Shown: piece after piece, positions 2,784 to 64,000 of the stretch
Layout: every line of letters begins with the position of its first letter
Position numbering within the stretch: position 1 is the first letter of the stretch
Source: Anaerolineae bacterium
Lineage (GTDB): Bacteria > Chloroflexota > Anaerolineae > Promineifilales > Promineifilaceae
DNA length: 64,000 bases
NCBI GenBank assembly: GCA_007123775.1
Contig: SLGK01000072.1
Coordinates: forward strand, 62,001 to 126,000
Direction of reading: 5' to 3'
The notes under the pieces: generated by a model
Told to the model about the DNA's origin: nothing
The model's input: the letters and a program-made list of their open reading frames with translations, nothing else
Databases searched by the model: none
Position numbers and translations under genes: made by a program

Positions 2784-3698
2784 TTACACGGCCGTTATTA
2801 AAGCCACAGCCCCCCACAACGGCGCATCATCCCCCAGTTGGGCCGGGTGCAGACTGACGCTGACTTCGGGCAGGATGGTGGCCCGGACGGTGCGGCGCAG
2901 TTCCTCCCACCAGAGGTCGCCCGCTTTGGTGACGCCGCCGCCGAGAATGATCCGGGCCGGGTTGATCAGGTTGGTGGCGTTGCCCAGACCCAGGCCGAGG
3001 GCGTTGGCCCCACGCAGCAGGATGCGCTGGGCGGTGGGGTCGCCGCCGGCGGCTTCAGCGGCCACCCGTTTACCTGTGACCGGTTTGGTAAACGGCCGTT
3101 TCTCCTCCCCCCACGCCGCCGCCAAATCCTGGGCCATGTAGGGACCAGACGCCATCCGCTCCACACAGCCCCGTTTGCCGCATAGACAAAGCGGCCCGTC
3201 CGGCGCAACAACCGTGTGGCCAATTTCGCCAGCCATGCCCTCGTGACCGCGCCAGATACGGCCGTTTAACACCCAACCACCCCCCACACCGGTACTCACC
3301 GTAACGTACAGCAAATCGTCCACACCTTGCCCTGCCCCGTAGCGCCATTCGCCCAGAGCGGCCACATTGGCGTCATTGTCCACCCAAACCGGCGCGTTAA
3401 ATTCGGCCGTGAGCCAGTCACGCAGCGGTGTGTTTTCCCAGCCGGGTACGTGGTGGGAGAGGCGAACCAGTCCGCGCTCAAAATCAACCGGTCCGCCAAA
3501 GCTGACGCCAACTGCCTGGGGAGAACGGCCGTTGAGCAGCTTGTGGGCCAGGGTAAGCATCTGACGGAAATCGTCAACGGCCGTTGCGCCAGGCTGCGAG
3601 AAATGGCGTTCGTGGGCCAGCCAGGTCTGTGAATCGGCCGTTACGGCCGCCGACAGCTTGGTACCGCCAAAATCGAGGGCTAATATTAGTGAGGACAT
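2784..3698 (-). CDS. ROK-family sugar kinase
   Basis: 304 residues, the normal size for a ROK kinase with no N-terminal DNA-binding domain, so an enzyme rather than a NagC/XylR-type repressor. DFGGTK at residues 9-14 is the ATP phosphate-binding motif, WVDNDANVAALGE covers the catalytic aspartate region, and GEIGHTVV followed by CLCGKRGCVE is the ROK zinc-binding signature. The substrate is probably glucose, N-acetylglucosamine or N-acetylmannosamine; the sequence alone does not decide. It stands alone, transcribed toward the NACHT gene's upstream region. Confidence 0.9.
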   Translation of the reverse strand: MSSLILALDFGGTKLSAAVTADSQTWLAHERHFSQPGATAVDDFRQMLTLAHKLLNGRSPQAVGVSFGGPVDFERGLVRLSHHVPGWENTPLRDWLTAEFNAPVWVDNDANVAALGEWRYGAGQGVDDLLYVTVSTGVGGGWVLNGRIWRGHEGMAGEIGHTVVAPDGPLCLCGKRGCVERMASGPYMAQDLAAAWGEEKRPFTKPVTGKRVAAEAAGGDPTAQRILLRGANALGLGLGNATNLINPARIILGGGVTKAGDLWWEELRRTVRATILPEVSVSLHPAQLGDDAPLWGAVALITAV

Positions 3699-11074: not shown

Positions 11075-13945
11075 ATGCACTTATGGTTAACACTATGGCA
11101 CAAGCTGCCCCCCGTCACCCTGGGCCTGTTCTTGGCTCGCATCCTGGCAGAAACTGTCGCTAACTGGTGGGGCGCACTGGCCTGGCCCTGGGTAGTGGTT
11201 ATCGGTCTGGTGGGCATGGTTTTGGGGTTGGTTAGTAGCCAGTATTCGGTGGGCAGTAGGCAGTGGGCAGTGGGCAGATGGCCGCTGCTCCTGCTCTGGC
11301 TTTACGTGGCCTGGCCCCAGCCGGATTGGAGCTGGGCAGCCACGGTGGGGCTGCTGACCGGGCTGACTATTTTGCTAATTGTGTTGGGGCAGTCCACCTG
11401 GCCGCGCCCCACGCCGGGGCAGGCGGGGGCGGTGCTGGCCGGGCTGGGCGGTCTGCTTTACTGGCACACGCTGGCCCCCGGCCTGCTGCCGGCCGACGCG
11501 GGCGAGTTTCAACTGGTGGCCGCCACGCTGGGGGTGGCCCATCCACCCGGCTTTCCCCTCTACACGCTGCTGGGCCACCTGTTTACCCGGCTGCCCGGCC
11601 TGACGCCCGCCTATGGTCTGAATCTATTCGCCGCGCTGACCAGCAGCCTGACGCTTTATCTGGTCTACCTGACCGCCTATCGCCTGACCCGGCAGCATAT
11701 AGCCAGCACAACGGCCGTACTCGCTCTGGCCACCGCTACCACCTTCTGGTCACAGGCCACCACCGCCAACGTCCGCAGCCTGACCGCCCTCTTCGCCGCT
11801 TTTATCATCTACCACCTGATCCGCTTCTACCAAACGCGAGATGAGTCGGTGACAACGGCCGACCAACATCTATTATGGGCGGCGCTGGGGCTGGGCTTTG
11901 GCCTGACCCACCACGCCTCGCTGCTCTTTATGGGGCTGATTTTTGGCCTGGCCCTGCTCGTTTTCGACCCGACATTTATCCGGCAGCCGCGCCGCTGGCT
12001 GCGCCCCATTCTGGCGGGATTGGCCGGCCTGCTGCCCTGGCTCTACCTGCCCTGGCGGGCCTGGGCCGGTGCGCCCGATGCGGCCGGGCTGGCTACCTGG
12101 CGGGGCTTTTGGGACCATGTGCTGGCGCGGGGCTTTAGCGGCGACTTTTTCTACTTTGCCCAACCCGATCTGCTCTGGCAGCGATTGGGCGTCATGGGCA
12201 ATGTGCTGACTTTTCAGTTTAACGGCTGGCTGCTGCTGGGGATGGCCCTAGGTGGCCTGCTGCTTCTCTGGCACGAGCGGCGGCTGGCGCTGCTGCTGCT
12301 GGGATCGTTTGGGCTGCATACGCTGATAACGGCCGTTTACCGCGCCCCCCAAACGGTCGAATATATGCTGCCGGCATACATACCGCTGGTGTTGATGTTG
12401 GCTTATGGGACGTATTGCGTAGTGCGTAGTGCGTATGCGTCAGTCTACGCACTACGCACTACCCACTACGCATCCTTGCTAACGGCCGTTTTTCTCACTG
12501 CTACCCTGGTACAAGGCTATACCCATTACCTCAGCTTTGCGGCTCTCAGCCAGCAGGAGGACGCCCGCCACTATGCCCAAACGCTGCTTACTGAGGCCCC
12601 GCCTGACAGCCTGATCCTGGCCCACTGGCATTGGTTCGCGCCGCTGCGTTACCTGCAAACGGTCGAAGGGCAGCGGCCAGACGTGGCCGTTGAATTCGTC
12701 TTCCCCAGGGGTGAGCCGTATGATGAGACGTGGGGGCGACTGGCGCGAGAGGGGTGGGAAAACGGCCGTTCTGTCATCACCACCCATTACGCCGAATTTG
12801 TCTATGAGGGGCTGCCTCCGCCCCAACCCATCGGCGAAGCGTTCCTCTTTGCCCAGACGCCAATGACTGATTTGCCCGCCGTATTTGGGGCGCTGGATTT
12901 GGCGTTGGGGGAACGGATTCAGGTGCGGGGGATCAGCAGTCAGTATGCAGTAGGCAGTAGTCAGCGTGCGACAGGTCTGGCTGTGGGGGAAACGACCGTA
13001 TTCACGCTCGCCTGGGAACCGGTTGGGGCAGGGGACGAGTCGCTCAGTCTGTTTGCCCATCTGGTGGGGCCGGATGGCCGGCTCTATGCCCAGGCCGATC
13101 TGCCCGCCAACCCCCAGCCGGACGGCCTGACGCTGACCCGCTTTTACCTGACGCCCAGACCAGGCGCACAGCCAGGCGAGTATGCGTTGATGATTGGCGG
13201 CTATGGGGCTGAGCCGCTGCTGCATGAAGGGGAAACAAGAACGGCCGTTTCCACTCTTACCCTCACGCCCCGCGCCACGCCCCTCTATACGCAAAACCGG
13301 CTGCGCCGCCCGTTGGCCGGTGCGCTGGCTCAACAGCAACAGTTGGTTGGTTACGATTGGGACCATACGCTGGCGGACAGTCCCCGCCTCTACCTCCATT
13401 GGCGCACGCCGGAAGGCTATTTCAGTCAGGTCTACGATAGCTCCGAACCGGTCAGTTTGCCCGCCACCAGCGGCCCCTGGGGAATACGTCAGGACTGGCC
13501 AATCCCGCGCTCAACAGGTAGCGGCCATTACGTGCCGCTGGGTCAGGGGCTGATCTGGCTAGGGGAAAACCGCCTGCCGCAGCCCGTCACCCAGCCGGAG
13601 ATCGCCCTGCCGCAGCGGTTAGCCAGCAGCCAGCCCATCCTGCGCGATCTGGTGATTTCGGTGCGGCTGGTCGGCTATGAGCCAGACGGCTTTCACTGGG
13701 CCTGGACCGATTTGCAGGATGGCGTACCGGCGATGGGGGCTATACCGACACTAAAATGGATTGAGGGATCAGAAGTGGTGTCGCCTTATCGGCTGGAAGT
13801 GGGGGAAACGGCCGTATCCGGTCAAACCATCGGCGGCTTCATACGCTTCTACGACGCCTTCACCAACGAGCCACTGCCCATCCTCGACGAACGATTAACG
13901 GACGAACAGCCGGGCATCCCGTTATCCGTGAGCCGTTATCAGTAA
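11075..13945 (+). CDS. DUF2723 (TMEM260-like) polytopic membrane protein
   Basis: 956 residues. The N-terminal half has about a dozen membrane helices and the DUF2723 signature DAGEFQLVAATLGVAHPPG (near residue 139), with the conserved Asp/Glu of the glycosyltransferase-C-like first loop. The C-terminal half is a soluble, probably extracytoplasmic region. The family is related to protein O-mannosyltransferases, so glycan transfer at the envelope is a reasonable inference. Unusually, three micro-repeats typical of intergenic DNA here lie in frame inside the gene, at the codons for VSSQYSVGSRQWAVG, VVRSAYASVYALRTTHYAS and ISSQYAVGSSQRATG. The last codons (SRYQ) also come from a repeat. Confidence 0.88.
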   Translation: MHLWLTLWHKLPPVTLGLFLARILAETVANWWGALAWPWVVVIGLVGMVLGLVSSQYSVGSRQWAVGRWPLLLLWLYVAWPQPDWSWAATVGLLTGLTILLIVLGQSTWPRPTPGQAGAVLAGLGGLLYWHTLAPGLLPADAGEFQLVAATLGVAHPPGFPLYTLLGHLFTRLPGLTPAYGLNLFAALTSSLTLYLVYLTAYRLTRQHIASTTAVLALATATTFWSQATTANVRSLTALFAAFIIYHLIRFYQTRDESVTTADQHLLWAALGLGFGLTHHASLLFMGLIFGLALLVFDPTFIRQPRRWLRPILAGLAGLLPWLYLPWRAWAGAPDAAGLATWRGFWDHVLARGFSGDFFYFAQPDLLWQRLGVMGNVLTFQFNGWLLLGMALGGLLLLWHERRLALLLLGSFGLHTLITAVYRAPQTVEYMLPAYIPLVLMLAYGTYCVVRSAYASVYALRTTHYASLLTAVFLTATLVQGYTHYLSFAALSQQEDARHYAQTLLTEAPPDSLILAHWHWFAPLRYLQTVEGQRPDVAVEFVFPRGEPYDETWGRLAREGWENGRSVITTHYAEFVYEGLPPPQPIGEAFLFAQTPMTDLPAVFGALDLALGERIQVRGISSQYAVGSSQRATGLAVGETTVFTLAWEPVGAGDESLSLFAHLVGPDGRLYAQADLPANPQPDGLTLTRFYLTPRPGAQPGEYALMIGGYGAEPLLHEGETRTAVSTLTLTPRATPLYTQNRLRRPLAGALAQQQQLVGYDWDHTLADSPRLYLHWRTPEGYFSQVYDSSEPVSLPATSGPWGIRQDWPIPRSTGSGHYVPLGQGLIWLGENRLPQPVTQPEIALPQRLASSQPILRDLVISVRLVGYEPDGFHWAWTDLQDGVPAMGAIPTLKWIEGSEVVSPYRLEVGETAVSGQTIGGFIRFYDAFTNEPLPILDERLTDEQPGIPLSVSRYQ
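11234..11277. repeat. In-gene stutter repeat, GGGCAGTAGGCAGT family
   Basis: Head-to-tail GGCAGTA/GGCAGTG words inside the DUF2723 reading frame, encoding a polar stretch between two membrane helices. A second member of the family lies later in the same gene at 12933. Confidence 0.8.
12410..12472. repeat. In-gene stutter palindrome, TACGCACTACG family
   Basis: The same GTAGTGCG...CTACGCAC hairpin found between many genes of the window. Here it is read in frame inside DUF2723, in the loop after a membrane helix. The left arm is GTATTGCGTAGTGCGTAGTG; the right arm is CTACGCACTACGCACTACCC. Confidence 0.9.
12933..12970. repeat. In-gene stutter repeat, GGCAGTAG family (second copy)
   Basis: CAGCAGTCAGTATGCAGTAG and following words, in frame within the soluble part of DUF2723. 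It translates as SSQYAVGSSQRA, nearly the same peptide as the first copy (SSQYSVGSRQWA). Confidence 0.75.
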
Positions 13946-21586: not shown

Positions 21587-23232
21587 TTGCAGTTCACAAT
21601 TAAAAACAGTTCAATCCCTTCCGCTTCATACACCGTTTCCAGGCAAAACCCGGCTTCGCTGACGGCGCGGCGGAAGGGGAGCGCGGCCGGCGTGTGGGGC
21701 AGTGACAGGTAGCGGGCGTGGCCGTCACTGCCAAAGACAAGGAGTTCCTCGGTCAGTTGGGCCGGATGGGGCAGCCAACTGTGGTGGACGCGCCTGTCAA
21801 ACAGATGGTAGCGCCACTGCCAACTGTGCCAATGGTCATAAAGGACAGTACCATAAGGTGCTTCTTCCAAATAGGCGGCGGCTGTCGCTATACCCTGATC
21901 GGCATCGGCCTGACCCCCGATCGGTAAACGGCCTGCACTGAGCCAGTCGAAGTGGCCGTTGCGTCCCGACCAGGCCCCCGGCAGCAGCAGTAAGACAACG
22001 ACCGCCGGCAAAACAATCTGCCCCATTTTGCCACGAAAGCTGAATAATGTCCCGCTCAGAACGCGAGCCAGCAGCAGGGCCAGAATGGGAACCAGCAGCA
22101 GCAAGTAGCGGTCCCAGACCGGAATAGCCAGCAGCCAGTGGAGGGCCAGATAGGCCAGGCTAAATAGAATCAACAGTCGGTCGGGGAAACGGCCGTAAAC
22201 CCACAGCCAGATCATCCCCCCACCAAGCAGCAGGAGGAACACCGCCCCCGGCCAACCGCCCGCCCACACCATCTGCCCCAGTTCAGCCCAGGCCAGCAAC
22301 CGCGGCCCCAGCTCCCACGACCAGATCAGGCGCGTACCGCCAAAGTTGCTCACCTGCAAGCCCCAGAGCGCCAGCGAGCCGGTCCGCAGCCACTCCCACA
22401 GCAGCAAGGTGGTCAAAAAGGGCAACATACCGGCCAGCCAGCGCATAGCGGCCAGACCCGCCCACCGATAAATCGGCGGGCTATCTAACAACGCCCGCTG
22501 AACCGGGCTGGCTGGCTGGTCTGGGCCATCAGCCGGATTTATCCGGCGTTGGTGGCTAGTGCAACTAGCCCCAATAGCCTGGTCGTTCACGGCCAGGCGA
22601 TCCGGAGCCGCCAACCAGCCCCACCGCCACCAACCCACCATCAATAGGAGCGGCAAAAAGAGCCACGCCTGGTGCTTGGTCAGCAGCGCCAGCCCAAACA
22701 ACACACCCGACCAGCCCGGCCGGTCAATCAGGGCCAGACTGCCCACCAACCAAAACAGCAGCAGCGGGTCCAAAAAAGCAGTCGCGCTAAACTGAATGGC
22801 ATAGGGGGATAGCGCAATCAGGACGGCGACGAGAATCGGTTGAATTACTAACAATGACGGAGGACCGAAGACAGAGGACCGAGACCGCCCTCCGTCTGCC
22901 GTCTGCCGTCTTTCGTCTTTAACATACCAACGCCACACCCACTGCGCCGTCAGCGGCACCAGCAAAATCGAGGCGATCCAGTTGGGCAAGCGGGCCGCCC
23001 ATTCCACCGGCCCTTGCAGCGGGTAAAAGAAGGCCTGTAAATAAAAAAGCAGCGGCGGCTTATCCACCAACTGCGTTTGCAGCAGCGGGTCACGCCAGAC
23101 GGCGATCAGTCGCGCCCAGGTAGCAAAAAGCGCTTCATCCCCCTGAAACGTATTGGCAAACAGCCCCGGCAGCCGCAGCCAAAAAGCCAGGAGGGTGATG
23201 GCGACTAGCAGCCAGCGCGTTTTCGGGGGCAT
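21583..23232 (-). CDS. GT39/ArnT-like membrane glycosyltransferase
   Basis: 549 residues; the start is set at MPPKTRW because the nine upstream codons are repeat DNA. The first loop carries FQGDEALFATWARL, the GT-C acidic motif, and LVDKPPLLFYLQAFFYPL, typical of PMT/ArnT enzymes that use polyprenyl-phosphate sugars. About 10-12 helices. Two micro-repeats are read in frame: ERRQTADGGRSRSSVFGP in a loop near residue 120, and FDWLSAGRLP, from a CTTCGACTGGCTCAG element, in the C-terminal domain. It forms a glycan group with YfhO and the GT2. Confidence 0.87.
   Translation of the reverse strand: MPPKTRWLLVAITLLAFWLRLPGLFANTFQGDEALFATWARLIAVWRDPLLQTQLVDKPPLLFYLQAFFYPLQGPVEWAARLPNWIASILLVPLTAQWVWRWYVKDERRQTADGGRSRSSVFGPPSLLVIQPILVAVLIALSPYAIQFSATAFLDPLLLFWLVGSLALIDRPGWSGVLFGLALLTKHQAWLFLPLLLMVGWWRWGWLAAPDRLAVNDQAIGASCTSHQRRINPADGPDQPASPVQRALLDSPPIYRWAGLAAMRWLAGMLPFLTTLLLWEWLRTGSLALWGLQVSNFGGTRLIWSWELGPRLLAWAELGQMVWAGGWPGAVFLLLLGGGMIWLWVYGRFPDRLLILFSLAYLALHWLLAIPVWDRYLLLLVPILALLLARVLSGTLFSFRGKMGQIVLPAVVVLLLLPGAWSGRNGHFDWLSAGRLPIGGQADADQGIATAAAYLEEAPYGTVLYDHWHSWQWRYHLFDRRVHHSWLPHPAQLTEELLVFGSDGHARYLSLPHTPAALPFRRAVSEAGFCLETVYEAEGIELFLIVNCK
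21931..21954. repeat. In-gene CTTCGA-CTCAG micro-element
   Basis: On the minus strand CTTCGACTGGCTCAGTGCAGG lies in frame within GT39. It resembles the 24-bp and 23-bp insertions seen in the two RHS copies at 60373 and 63164. Confidence 0.55.
22856..22920. repeat. In-gene stutter palindrome, GACCGAAGACGGAGG family
   Basis: GACGGAGGACCGAAGACAGAGG and facing CCGTCTGCCGTCTTTCGTC words lie in frame in a loop of the GT39 protein. Identical-type elements are intergenic at 33.9 and 42.2 kb. Confidence 0.88.
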
Positions 23233-60141: not shown

Positions 60142-60150
60142 TGAAACCAC

Positions 60151-61533
60151 TTGTGGCATCTGAAAGGGCGATTGAAGCCGATTTCGTATCATTTATTGAT
60201 TTTTTGGCAAGGCCATTCGCCAACGGCCGAAAACCAACTCCACCGCGCCATTCGCTACAACGGCGACCATTGCGAGGCTGGAGCCAGCGACCCGGCTGAA
60301 CTCATCGCCTTCACCTACGACGCCGACGGGATGATGGTCTTGCGCAATGACAATGGCCAGCGCACTGTCTTCCCTTCGGCGGGGCTCAGGGCAAGCCTGG
60401 GCAACCTCTACCAGCGCAACCTGCCCACCGGCGTGCAGACCAGGCATTACTTCTTTGGCGGCAAGCTGGTTGCCACGCGCCAGAACAACAATGCCGCCCA
60501 CTTCCTGCTGACCGATCATTTAGGCAGTGTCAACGTGACCCGCAATAGCGATGGTACCGTCCATTCCCGGCTGCGCTATGATCCGTGGGGCAAACAGCGC
60601 TGGGCACACAATAACATACCCACCGATTACCGCTACACGGCGCAGCGGTTTGACGCCAAGCTGGGTATCTACGACTACCGCGCGCGTTATTATGACCCGC
60701 ATATAGCACGCTTTCTCAGCGCCGACCCCATCGTCCCCGACCCCAAGAACCCGCAACAGTTCAACCGGTACAGCTACGTTCTCAACAACGCCCTCCGCTA
60801 CACCGACCCCACGGGCCATTTCTGCTACGACCCCAGCTTTGGTGCCGCCGCCGGGCAGTGCTATAGTCAGGATGGCCACCATGTCAATCCACAGCATATC
60901 CTCGAAAAACGCCGTGCCAGTCTGGAGCCGCCGTCTAACTTACTTACACATTTACCTCTTGACAAGCGCGATATCAGAGGGCAAAGTGGATTTGGGCCGA
61001 ATTGGTTTGCAACTGTTGCTTGTAAACAAACAGGCTATGGAGGTTCTAGCAATATTCATACAGGCCTGGACTTTTTTGCCCCGGCTGGAAGCACAGTATA
61101 TGCTACGGTTAGTGGAACGATAGTTCAACGGTATCATAGAACTGACACCAGTCCTGGCGATGCATGGCCAAATGTTGTTATAGAAGTTATTGTAGGAGGT
61201 GTAACTTATTATGTAGTCCATGGTCATGTTGAGCGAAGCACAAATCTTAAAATCGGTGATTCTGTAAACGCTGGTGATGTTATTGGAACAGTAGAAGATG
61301 ACGGAGTAAATTCTCACGTTCATTTAGGCATCAGACGAACAACAACAGGCCAAGATAGAGCGTATAACCCGCTATTGTTTATGGACCCGGCATTAACCGT
61401 GGGCATGAACTTCGTTTCAAAGACGCGTCCATACTATGGTAATGAAACGCCAACTTCAATCCGATCCTTCCTTTTTGGCGGTGGTAGTTATTATGATGAA
61501 GCTAACCGAGGTTCTATAGGAATTGTAAGATGA
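60151..61533 (+). CDS. RHS tip with C-terminal M23/LytM peptidase domain (truncated at N-terminus)
   Basis: The frame opens at a TTG; the first in-frame ATG is at 60331, so the true N-terminus is missing. Residues about 60-210 are the conserved RHS core end: LVATRQNNNAAHFLLTDHLG, RYDPWGKQR, YDYRARYYDPHIARFLSADP, NRYSYVLNNALRYTDPTG. After this hypervariable junction the composition turns AT-rich. A metallopeptidase follows: HTGLDFFAPAGSTVYATVSG carries the H...D ligands and SHVHLGI the HxH, the M23 lysostaphin-type zinc site. It would cut peptidoglycan cross-links. A 24-bp micro-insertion adds PSAGLRAS within the RHS part. The lipoprotein gene overlaps its stop by 4 bp. Confidence 0.85.
   Translation: MWHLKGRLKPISYHLLIFWQGHSPTAENQLHRAIRYNGDHCEAGASDPAELIAFTYDADGMMVLRNDNGQRTVFPSAGLRASLGNLYQRNLPTGVQTRHYFFGGKLVATRQNNNAAHFLLTDHLGSVNVTRNSDGTVHSRLRYDPWGKQRWAHNNIPTDYRYTAQRFDAKLGIYDYRARYYDPHIARFLSADPIVPDPKNPQQFNRYSYVLNNALRYTDPTGHFCYDPSFGAAAGQCYSQDGHHVNPQHILEKRRASLEPPSNLLTHLPLDKRDIRGQSGFGPNWFATVACKQTGYGGSSNIHTGLDFFAPAGSTVYATVSGTIVQRYHRTDTSPGDAWPNVVIEVIVGGVTYYVVHGHVERSTNLKIGDSVNAGDVIGTVEDDGVNSHVHLGIRRTTTGQDRAYNPLLFMDPALTVGMNFVSKTRPYYGNETPTSIRSFLFGGGSYYDEANRGSIGIVR
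60373..60396. repeat. 24-bp micro-insertion in the RHS gene
   Basis: CCTTCGGCGGGGCTCAGG then GCAAGC, inserted in frame between codons for TVF and LGN. The paralogue at 63350 has TVFLGN with no insertion, so the ends are defined to the base. Confidence 0.88.
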
Positions 61534-62939
61534 AAAATTTACCTTTTGTAGCCGTGTTTATAAGTTTATGTATCTTTTTGTTCCTGGTTGGTTGTACGGG
61601 GGAGGGTTTTCAGGTTGGGATAGAACCAACGGTGTCTGTGGCGACGCTGTCACCAACACCAACGGCTTCTTTGCAATCAGCAACAGAAACTGCTTTGACT
61701 ACAGCTACCGCCACGGCAAAACCTGAACCGGTTAGCACGCCGACACTTGAACCCTCAGCTACGGTCTCCCCCATTACCCCGACACCAACGCCAACCATGC
61801 CTGCGTTGCTTCAGCCGAATACGGCTACAACGCCAGTTATGTGCCGCCAGTTCAAATCGTACATAAATATTCAACAGGAAACAGACAACGCAAGGTGGTT
61901 AATGGACTTTGTATTTGAACAAGAGGATGTGATTACCTTTTTGATGTGGTCAGATAGGCCCTACCCCGGGCCAACACCAACACCCTTTGTCGGCACAATC
62001 GAACCGGGTGGTCCACCTCCTGGTGAATTTAGCCAGTCTAGACGAGTTTTACTGAAAGGGCAAACCTGGGATTTCAATAGGGAAACCCTCGTAGAGACCC
62101 CGGTTATGGAGCAAGATGCTATACAAAACCCTTGTGATCAAGATTGTCCATTGGAGGTAATTGGTGTTGCGCCGGATAATAGCTGGCAGTTGTTGCAGAT
62201 AACAGAGGCGCCGGCGGAGTATCAAGGGCTTTGGTTGGTAAACGAGGAAACAGTCTACAATCTGGTTCCCTATGTACCGATTTTCAGCGATTGGCGGTGG
62301 TCAGCCGATAGTCGTATGTTATGGTTATTTTATATGTTACAGGACCGCGGTGGGGAAACTTATGGTTCTGAAAGATTGGTTGTGGATTTAGCCGCTCCGG
62401 CATTGCCACGGATTGTTTTTCGATCCTGGGATGCCGGTCAGTGGCAGTGGTTAAACTTACTTCCGCCTTCACGTGATGGGTATGAATTCGTTTTCTCCCC
62501 TGCAGACAAGACCGTGCTGGCGTATGAATATTTCGGGGCTCCCAGCCTGATTCCACAGGACAATCGCTTGTACGTCTATCATATTGACTTTTCAGCAGAT
62601 CCACCTCATCTCCAAGATGTTTATGAAGCCCGTTTCCCCACCCTGATTGATTGGAGTGAATCGCTACATGACTTCGTGGTCACAGAGTTAGGTTCAGCAG
62701 GAGCAGCAATTTATGCCTTGAATCATGAAGTTGTGTATGAGATTCCTATGGAAGTAGTTATTGGACAAATGCCTCAATTGCTAGGCAGAGATGGCCAAAC
62801 CAGAACCGATTTTGATGCCGAAGAGATCATGCTGCGCTTTTATTGGAACATAGAAAGAGTCGCCATATCACCTGATTTGCAACACGTTGTGTTGATGAGT
62901 GATAGAGGAGAAGCCTGGGCATTTTCTTGTTCCGATTAG
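61530..62939 (+). CDS. Lipoprotein overlapping the RHS-M23 gene, candidate immunity protein
   Basis: 469 residues. The signal peptide ends in FLVGC (lipobox, Cys22), so it is anchored outside the membrane. A Thr/Pro/Ala-rich linker (about 35-105) is followed by a large beta-rich region with repeated WxW/D blades (SDWRWSADSRMLWLFYMLQD, RFYWNIERVAISPDLQHVVL), probably a beta-propeller. The ATGA overlap with an RHS-M23 toxin, and the matching extracytoplasmic location, suggest an immunity or adaptor role. No family was recognised, so this is inference. AT-rich and free of ACGGCCGT. Confidence 0.75.
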   Translation: MKNLPFVAVFISLCIFLFLVGCTGEGFQVGIEPTVSVATLSPTPTASLQSATETALTTATATAKPEPVSTPTLEPSATVSPITPTPTPTMPALLQPNTATTPVMCRQFKSYINIQQETDNARWLMDFVFEQEDVITFLMWSDRPYPGPTPTPFVGTIEPGGPPPGEFSQSRRVLLKGQTWDFNRETLVETPVMEQDAIQNPCDQDCPLEVIGVAPDNSWQLLQITEAPAEYQGLWLVNEETVYNLVPYVPIFSDWRWSADSRMLWLFYMLQDRGGETYGSERLVVDLAAPALPRIVFRSWDAGQWQWLNLLPPSRDGYEFVFSPADKTVLAYEYFGAPSLIPQDNRLYVYHIDFSADPPHLQDVYEARFPTLIDWSESLHDFVVTELGSAGAAIYALNHEVVYEIPMEVVIGQMPQLLGRDGQTRTDFDAEEIMLRFYWNIERVAISPDLQHVVLMSDRGEAWAFSCSD

Positions 62940-63010
62940 TTTCTGTTGATTTCCATCTACTCCGGGACAGTGTTTGGGGTTGAGGGTCACACAGCTATCG
63001 GTACAATTGA

Positions 63011-63735
63011 CTGGGTAACCTGACCAACTATGCCGGCAGCAGTTACAGTTATGGGTTTGGCAGTTGGCACGGCAATAATTGTGAGGACCAACCTATACAC
63101 GCCCTGCCTCACGCCGTCAAGCGCATTGGCAGCCAATACTTCTGCTACGACCACAACGGCAACCCTTCGATTCCACTCAGGCAAGCATGACCCGGCGCAT
63201 CGACGAGAACAACAAGGATTGGACCTACACCTGGACAGTTGACAACCGGCTGGCCCGGGCCACCACAGCCGGCGGTGACGACGTGCGCTTTGTCTACGAT
63301 GCCGACGGCGCCATGGTGCTGCGTAACGACAATGGCCAGCGCACCGTCTTTCTAGGCAACCTCTACCAGCGCAACCTGGCCACCGGCGTGCAGACCAAAC
63401 ATTACTTCTTTGGCGGCAAGCTGGTTGCCACGCGCCAGAACAACAATGCCGCCCACTTCCTGCTGACCAATCATTTAGGCAGTGTCAACGTGACCCTCAA
63501 TGCCGACGGCACCATCCATTCCCGGCTGCGCTATGATCCCTGGGGTAAGCAGCGCTGGGCACACAATAACACACCCACCGATTACCGTTACACGGCGCAG
63601 CGGTTTGACGCCAAGCTGGGTATTTATGACTACCGGGCGCGCTATTATGACCTGCATATCGGCCGTTTCTTTCACTTACGGCTGGCTGAGAACGATTCTC
63701 AACCACTCCCATTTTATGCTACACTATCCCCATAA
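63011..63735 (+). pseudogene. Displaced RHS tip, broken by a 23-bp insertion and truncated
   Basis: The RHS frame starts abruptly at NLTNYAGSSYSYGFG and runs to FCYDHNGN, then a 23-bp insertion shifts the frame. It resumes at the ATG of MTRRIDENNKDWTYTW (63187), continues through VRFVYDADGAMVLRNDNG, LVATRQNNNAAHFLLTNHLG and YDYRARYYD, and breaks off after LHIGRFF where copy 1 has PHIARFLSADP. It is over 85 percent identical to copy 1 by eye in the shared part. This is an RHS tip left behind after exchange of the toxin end. Confidence 0.85.
63164..63186. repeat. 23-bp micro-insertion in the displaced RHS tip
   Basis: CCTTCGATTCCACTCAGG then CAAGC. Removing it restores the frame HNGN-MTRR. It has the same ends (CCTTCG...CTCAGG...CAAGC) as the 24-bp element at 60373. 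Confidence 0.85.
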
Positions 63736-64000
63736 GCGAAACGGACAATCCCCTCAAACTCCTGATTACCGAATTCGCCGACGCCTTTGCCGCCTGGCTC
63801 TTGCCGCAGCCGATTCAATGGATACGGTCGCTTAACGTCGAATTCCTGGCCACCCCTCTACGCAGCGATCTGCTGTTTGAGGTGATGGATGAAAACGGCC
63901 GTTTGCAATTACTCCACTACGAACTGCAAGGCCGCACCAGCCACAAACCGATGCCTTACCGGAAGTTGCAGCGCCAACTGGAAGCTGTTCACCACCCCGG
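63732..64000 (+). CDS. Rpn/PD-(D/E)XK-type nuclease, 5' part (continues beyond window)
   Basis: An open frame from the RHS tip's stop to the right edge: NPLKLLITEFADAFAAWLLP, FLATPLRSDLLFEVMDENG, LLHYELQGRTSHK. The Asp of SDLLFEV and the Glu-x-Gln of HYELQ fit the nuclease core of the Rpn/transposase-like (YhgA-type) proteins. No ATG precedes SETDNPLK; the expected position holds ATA, so either this rare codon is used or the start was destroyed at the RHS junction. ACGGCCGT is present, suggesting long residence. Confidence 0.72.
   Translation, partial: MSETDNPLKLLITEFADAFAAWLLPQPIQWIRSLNVEFLATPLRSDLLFEVMDENGRLQLLHYELQGRTSHKPMPYRKLQRQLEAVHHP

Follow-up and report, generated by a model that had tools for sequence, protein, structure and literature searches.

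A probably mobile, non-autonomous 23/24-nt micro-element of SDR kind in an Anaerolineae genome and in many other phyla

The right end of the window (the whole stretch of 64,000 nucleotides analysed here) carries two RHS copies, each interrupted by a short insert at a different place. Are these inserts ancestral codons, or units of DNA that move? An earlier note, made from the letters of this stretch, had argued for the latter, reading the first insert against an empty site in copy 2 and the second as a break of the copy 2 frame. The features in question are:

60226-60840, + strand: fragment of RHS copy 1 (open frame 60145-61533), aligning to copy 2, host of CCCTTCGGCGGGGCTCAGGGCAAG
60372-60395, + strand: 24-nt micro-element CCCTTCGGCGGGGCTCAGGGCAAG in RHS copy 1 between TVF and LGN, an exact gap against copy 2, empty in homologues
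63098-63690, + strand: fragment of RHS copy 2, frame broken at the insert, host of CCCTTCGATTCCACTCAGGCAAG
63163-63185, + strand: 23-nt micro-element CCCTTCGATTCCACTCAGGCAAG in RHS copy 2 between HNGN and MTRR, from sequence and frames, contiguous in homologues

Sequence and alignment of the pair bear out both observations. The surrounding DNA of copies 1 and 2 is nearly identical and is interrupted by a single gap of exactly 24 bp between TVF and LGN; the insert keeps the frame of copy 1 and adds eight codons (PSAGLRAS), with boundaries ambiguous by 1 nt (60373-60396 fits equally). The insert of copy 2, a relative of the 24-nt form that is one base shorter, sits as 23 bp between GGCAA and CATGACC, again with a 1-nt boundary ambiguity, and thereby shifts HNGN and MTRR into different frames. 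RHS proteins from 40 related genomes were aligned and judged on those covering the two sites. These homologues (L191, L192, L193, L212, L213, L197 and L204) are uninterrupted at both: YDxNGNM is contiguous, and the 8-aa insert after TVF-like residues is absent. Both RHS inserts are therefore derived, and the observation that would have spoken against mobility, relatives carrying identical segments, was not made in these homologues.

Taking RHS alone, the case comprises two sites only, and it might be held that the segments are immobile, being either ancestral RHS codons or the remainder of independent deletions in the empty copies. The homologues are empty at both sites, the same unit also occurs in unrelated contexts and nested within itself, and the genome-wide search proposed in the earlier note returned 50 matches of the core pattern in this genome versus 0 for the reversed pattern. 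We regard an immobile origin as scarcely credible.

A separate RHS array in a genome of another genus (G038, C3 and C31; L264, L265) consists of five to six tandem copies with the micro-element at a conserved TDHLGS, where they are frameshifted. Several copies are hit between TDH and LGS, before CCTGG, which is also the flank in RHS copy 1. The element-bearing copies of this array probably spread together with the duplicated RHS units.

Anatomy of the unit and its stem

The window contains two further copies of the micro-element. The third copy that had been suspected near 21931 is real and lies on the minus strand; the fourth belongs to a subfamily with a longer core:

21932-21954, - strand: 23-nt copy CACTTCGACTGGCTCAGTGCAGG with stem CACT/AGTG, central in an AACGGC/CCGTTT palindrome
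2745-2768, + strand: 24-nt copy TACTTCGGCTGCGCTCAGCACAAG of the 16-nt core subfamily

The pattern CCTTCGN6CTCAGG occurs twice in the window versus 0.11 occurrences expected. All copies fit the family consensus Y-N-CTTCG-RC-NN(N)-GC-TCAG-N'-R-CARG, whose units measure 23 nt with a 15-nt core and 24 nt with a 16-nt core. One foot of the stem carries a 4-nt tag, CARG (CYTG on the opposite strand). Tag and CTTCG/CTCAG are invariant; the outer stem bases vary in pairs, as CC..GG, AC..GT, TAC..GTA or TCC..GGA. The earlier proposal of defined ends, CCTTCG...CTCAGG.CAAGC, hence holds for the fixed parts and is corrected for CC...GG, which are covarying stem bases. Similarly, the inserts do share their ends and differ inside, with the refinement that the variable inside is the hairpin loop and the outer bases belong to the covarying stem.

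Covariation concerns positions -2/+2 and -3/+3. In the genome of the window, pair 3 is of Watson-Crick type in 49 of 56 units versus 20 expected (C-G 22, T-A 20, G-C 7), and pair 2 in 39 of 56, again versus 20 expected. Among 82 matches from named genomes, chosen by a pattern that leaves positions -2 and -3 unspecified, 69 form pair 2 and 58 form pair 3. Thermodynamic folding does not separate the units (0 to -1.9 kcal/mol) from shuffled sequences, because CT lies opposite TC within the stem (GA opposite AG on the complementary strand). It is thus the covariation that argues for a hairpin, whose predicted fold is weak. A comparison with Rfam matched no family at gathering score. In three loci of the same genome (L002, L014, L048) hairpins form inverted pairs, with a GGTT..AACC stem beside a CCCT..AGGG stem, similar to REPIN doublets.

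Nested copies and insertion sites

The unit is delimited most sharply where it has entered another copy of itself. In 26 nested insertions, excising exactly 23/24 nt makes the outer element whole again, and apart from an ambiguity of 1 nt the target is not duplicated, in agreement with the earlier note, which had seen no duplication. These cases stem mostly from one genome (G194) and two outer sites, hence do not represent 26 fully independent events, and some may have arisen by copying of a composite that was already nested. Examples are CTTCGA[CCCTTCGACAAGCTCAGGACAGG]CAAGCTCAG (L250), CCTGAG[TACTTCGACAAGCTCAGTACAGG]CTCTGTCGAAGG (L183) and, in the genome of the window, GCGC[TACTTCGACTGCGCTCAGTACAAG]TCAG (L033). 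The nested copies fix the unit to the nucleotide, bar the 1-nt ambiguity, and reveal a target preference. The unit usually starts with the same pyrimidine as its right flank (unit/flank in this genome: T/T 11, T/C 7, C/C 15, C/T 0). Each boundary is consequently ambiguous by 1 nt, which either microhomology or duplication of 1 nt could produce. Of the 14 sites characterised, 12 have Y-N-N-G as right flank, a sequence resembling the element's own CARG end. At AACGGC^CYGTT palindrome sites the net insert appears 1 nt longer than at other sites.

A second type of target are heptamer repeats. One such array of this genome is found empty in one locus (L012, GTGAAACTCTGCG) and filled in another (L234, GTGAAAC[unit]TCTGCG), and the unit likewise interrupts heptamer arrays in Nostoc sp. 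(L407, L351).

A third target is the palindrome AACGGCCGTT, which occurs 32 times in the window versus 0.1 expected (for example at 3091-3100, 12328-12337 and 63894-63903) and 3116 times in the genome versus 19 for a reversed control. About a quarter of 40 relatives, all of one family, harbor 1900-3700 copies; the others have only tens. AACGGCCGTT is a highly iterated palindrome with a patchy distribution within a family, like cyanobacterial HIP1, and a link to a methyltransferase is possible. Of the 34 tagged copies of the micro-element, about 11, belonging to the CAC..GTG subfamily, lie at the centre of AACGGCCGTT, in at least six different contexts (chance of at least 6 of 34 copies within AACGGCCGTT, P about 4e-14). 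A close parallel from another phylum is SDR5, which enters HIP1 exactly between nucleotides 3 and 4 (PMC4390886).

The palindrome also suggests a different account of the micro-element, namely a fixed regulatory or protein-binding motif (Chi- or HIP-like) multiplied by selection and point mutation, as AACGGCCGTT itself appears to behave in the same genome; high genome-specific copy numbers would fit. Against it, whole 23/24-nt units come and go en bloc, empty sites lack the entire block, and element copies disrupt genes; we consider this account very improbable.

Copy number and taxonomic spread

Among relatives, the copy number of the core pattern is patchy, ranging from 0 to 473. The tagged form is present in 63 of 301 genomes of the phylum; its reversed control is listed once. 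Within genera, 176 copies (G132) are set against 1-2, a contrast inflated by a longer repeat: most of the 176 copies lie within this amplified repeat (L130-L159), and we dropped the count as evidence of mobility.

A scan of named genomes returned at least 118 stretches with the element. The matches listed span Cyanobacteria, Chloroflexota, Bacteroidota, Patescibacteria, Spirochaetes, Planctomycetes, Omnitrophota, Gemmatimonadetes and others, and include Nostocales (Nostoc, Anabaena, Tolypothrix and others), with some copies within heptamer repeats. By our estimate, the 18 fixed bases would match about 15 times by chance in the whole collection of 257 Gb, and some records are metagenome bins, hence a single match in a phylum should not be over-read. 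That the stem pairs in 84% of cases shows most of the named matches to be real. A literature search with the literal element sequence returned nothing relevant.

Class of the element and its proposed mover

Defined ends, derived and nested insertions, a covarying stem, a patchy copy number and the lack of a linked gene in any genome are best accounted for by a family of non-autonomous mobile micro-elements of 23/24 nt, of SDR kind and mechanistically near REP, with an enzyme acting in trans as the working model (probability about 0.8). Transposition itself is supported by comparison of sequences. The suggestion that short sequences without coding capacity move at this locus has thus held up, on the strength of the empty RHS homologues, the 26 nested insertions, the filled and empty heptamer arrays and the patchy copy number. 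A hairpin unit of this size is among the smallest known classes of moving DNA.

SDRs of Nostoc and relatives, with eight published families, were reportedly described by Elhai et al. in 2008 (Genome Res). They are 21-27 nt in length, have a stem with compensatory changes and no linked gene, and their copies lie within other SDR copies and within heptamer repeats. To our knowledge, they have been described as confined to one group of cyanobacteria. In a comparison by features, every one that was tested places the micro-element in the SDR/REP class of non-autonomous elements: it is a dispersed unit of 23/24 nt, within the range of about 21-27 nt, with fixed ends that are exact in the 26 nested events; its stem shows compensatory changes, with pairs 2 and 3 far above independence (the folding energy is not significant); it is located in heptamer repeats, in its own copies and in a highly iterated palindrome; and it has no linked gene. 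Unlike SDRs, it occurs in Chloroflexota and many other phyla. The palindromic elements of Rickettsia likewise insert in frame inside genes but, at about 100-150 nt, are far larger and are known from Rickettsia only. IS200/IS605 elements and derived MITEs join beside a short target without duplication, which would look alike, whereas the micro-element has no left/right end pair, no internal sequence and no TnpA.

The closest mechanistic comparison is with REP/REPIN sequences moved by RAYT proteins. REPs are short imperfect hairpins with a 4-nt tag at the foot (PMC3116915, PMC2817692), and their superfamilies carry GTAG and CGTC tags (PMC3733652). The micro-element shares the short imperfect hairpin, the 4-nt foot tag, the lack of target duplication and, sometimes, inverted pairs (L002, L014). 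A RAYT-specific NCBIfam model, which altered the picture given by the Pfam profile Y1_Tnp (too insensitive for divergent RAYTs), identifies three divergent RAYT-like HuH genes in the genome of the window, all near the cut-off and one of them inspected directly:

G000 C171:17276-17665: RAYT-like gene (NCBIfam RAYT profile)
G000 C156:4129-4464: RAYT-like gene (NCBIfam RAYT profile)
G000 C179:1000-1431: RAYT-like gene (NCBIfam RAYT profile)

We note that a Y1_Tnp profile match in another locus (L018) appears to be a regulator-like protein and was dropped as a transposase candidate.

Hairpin, tag and resident RAYT-like genes would be expected of a REP of the classical kind, mobilised by a RAYT gene of its own next to it. 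However, the tag is CYTG and neither GTAG nor CGTC, the three RAYT-like genes are not flanked by the element, and copies lie within genes (RHS genes and other long ORFs) where REPs are extragenic. Across about 50 RAYT loci (190 kb) none is flanked by the element, and three scattered core-like matches were found. The micro-element, which is mobile as a single 23-24-nt unit, thus fails two defining features of the classical system, tag and linkage, and we consider such an origin improbable. The link to RAYT that the earlier note had suggested checking is only statistical: 29 of 40 genomes with at least five copies have a RAYT profile match versus 106 of 261 others (p = 2.5e-4, odds ratio about 4, 301 genomes, uncorrected for kinship). 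The other 11 of the 40 rich genomes are without a match, including six with at least 10 copies, and within one family (f31) the association vanishes (p = 0.32).

For the mobilising machinery of the non-autonomous element we infer the following steps. The strand CYTG-Y-N'-CTGAG-loop-CGAAG-N-R would fold on itself, and hairpin and 5' tag would be recognised in trans, most likely by a single-strand HuH transposase of RAYT/Y1 type encoded elsewhere. This enzyme would cut the element and join it beside a short target of YNNG type, similar to the element's own CARG tag, and would duplicate at most 1 nt of the target. Inside ORFs, units of 24 nt are frame-neutral and tolerated, while those of 23 nt break genes. 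A HuH enzyme in trans is our leading guess, held at somewhat less than even odds. Its main rival needs no transposase dedicated to the element: repair enzymes would fill breaks or gaps left by replication, copying in either a hairpin-forming transcript or single-stranded DNA. An RNA intermediate was reportedly once proposed for cyanobacterial SDRs. The lack of a linked gene in any genome, element-rich genomes without detectable RAYT, occurrence in many phyla, targets that include very short palindromes and heptamer arrays, and 1-nt microhomology at the ends are in line with this route, whereas nucleotide-exact ends in 26 nested events and recurring fixed sites suggest a sequence-specific enzyme; on balance, we consider the repair route rather unlikely.

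The work on cyanobacterial SDRs left the question of how units of about 20 nt move, and what stands out here is that the same micro-element lives far outside cyanobacteria, in many phyla and with no enzyme linked to it. Only tentatively, and at somewhat less than even odds, we propose that one family of 23-24 nt moves with nucleotide precision across many phyla without a linked or consistently co-occurring transposase. If so, either diverse host HuH enzymes are used in trans via the CYTG tag, or the mechanism is transposase-free and based on repair or RNA. Nested copies, target preference, taxonomic spread and pairs of high- and low-copy genomes make the search for the enzyme tractable by comparison. 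The micro-element also breaks or lengthens genes and will give rise to false peptide stretches in annotations. Finally, 42 stretches with the element were found in viral contigs (L088-L129), hence phages may ferry the micro-element between hosts.
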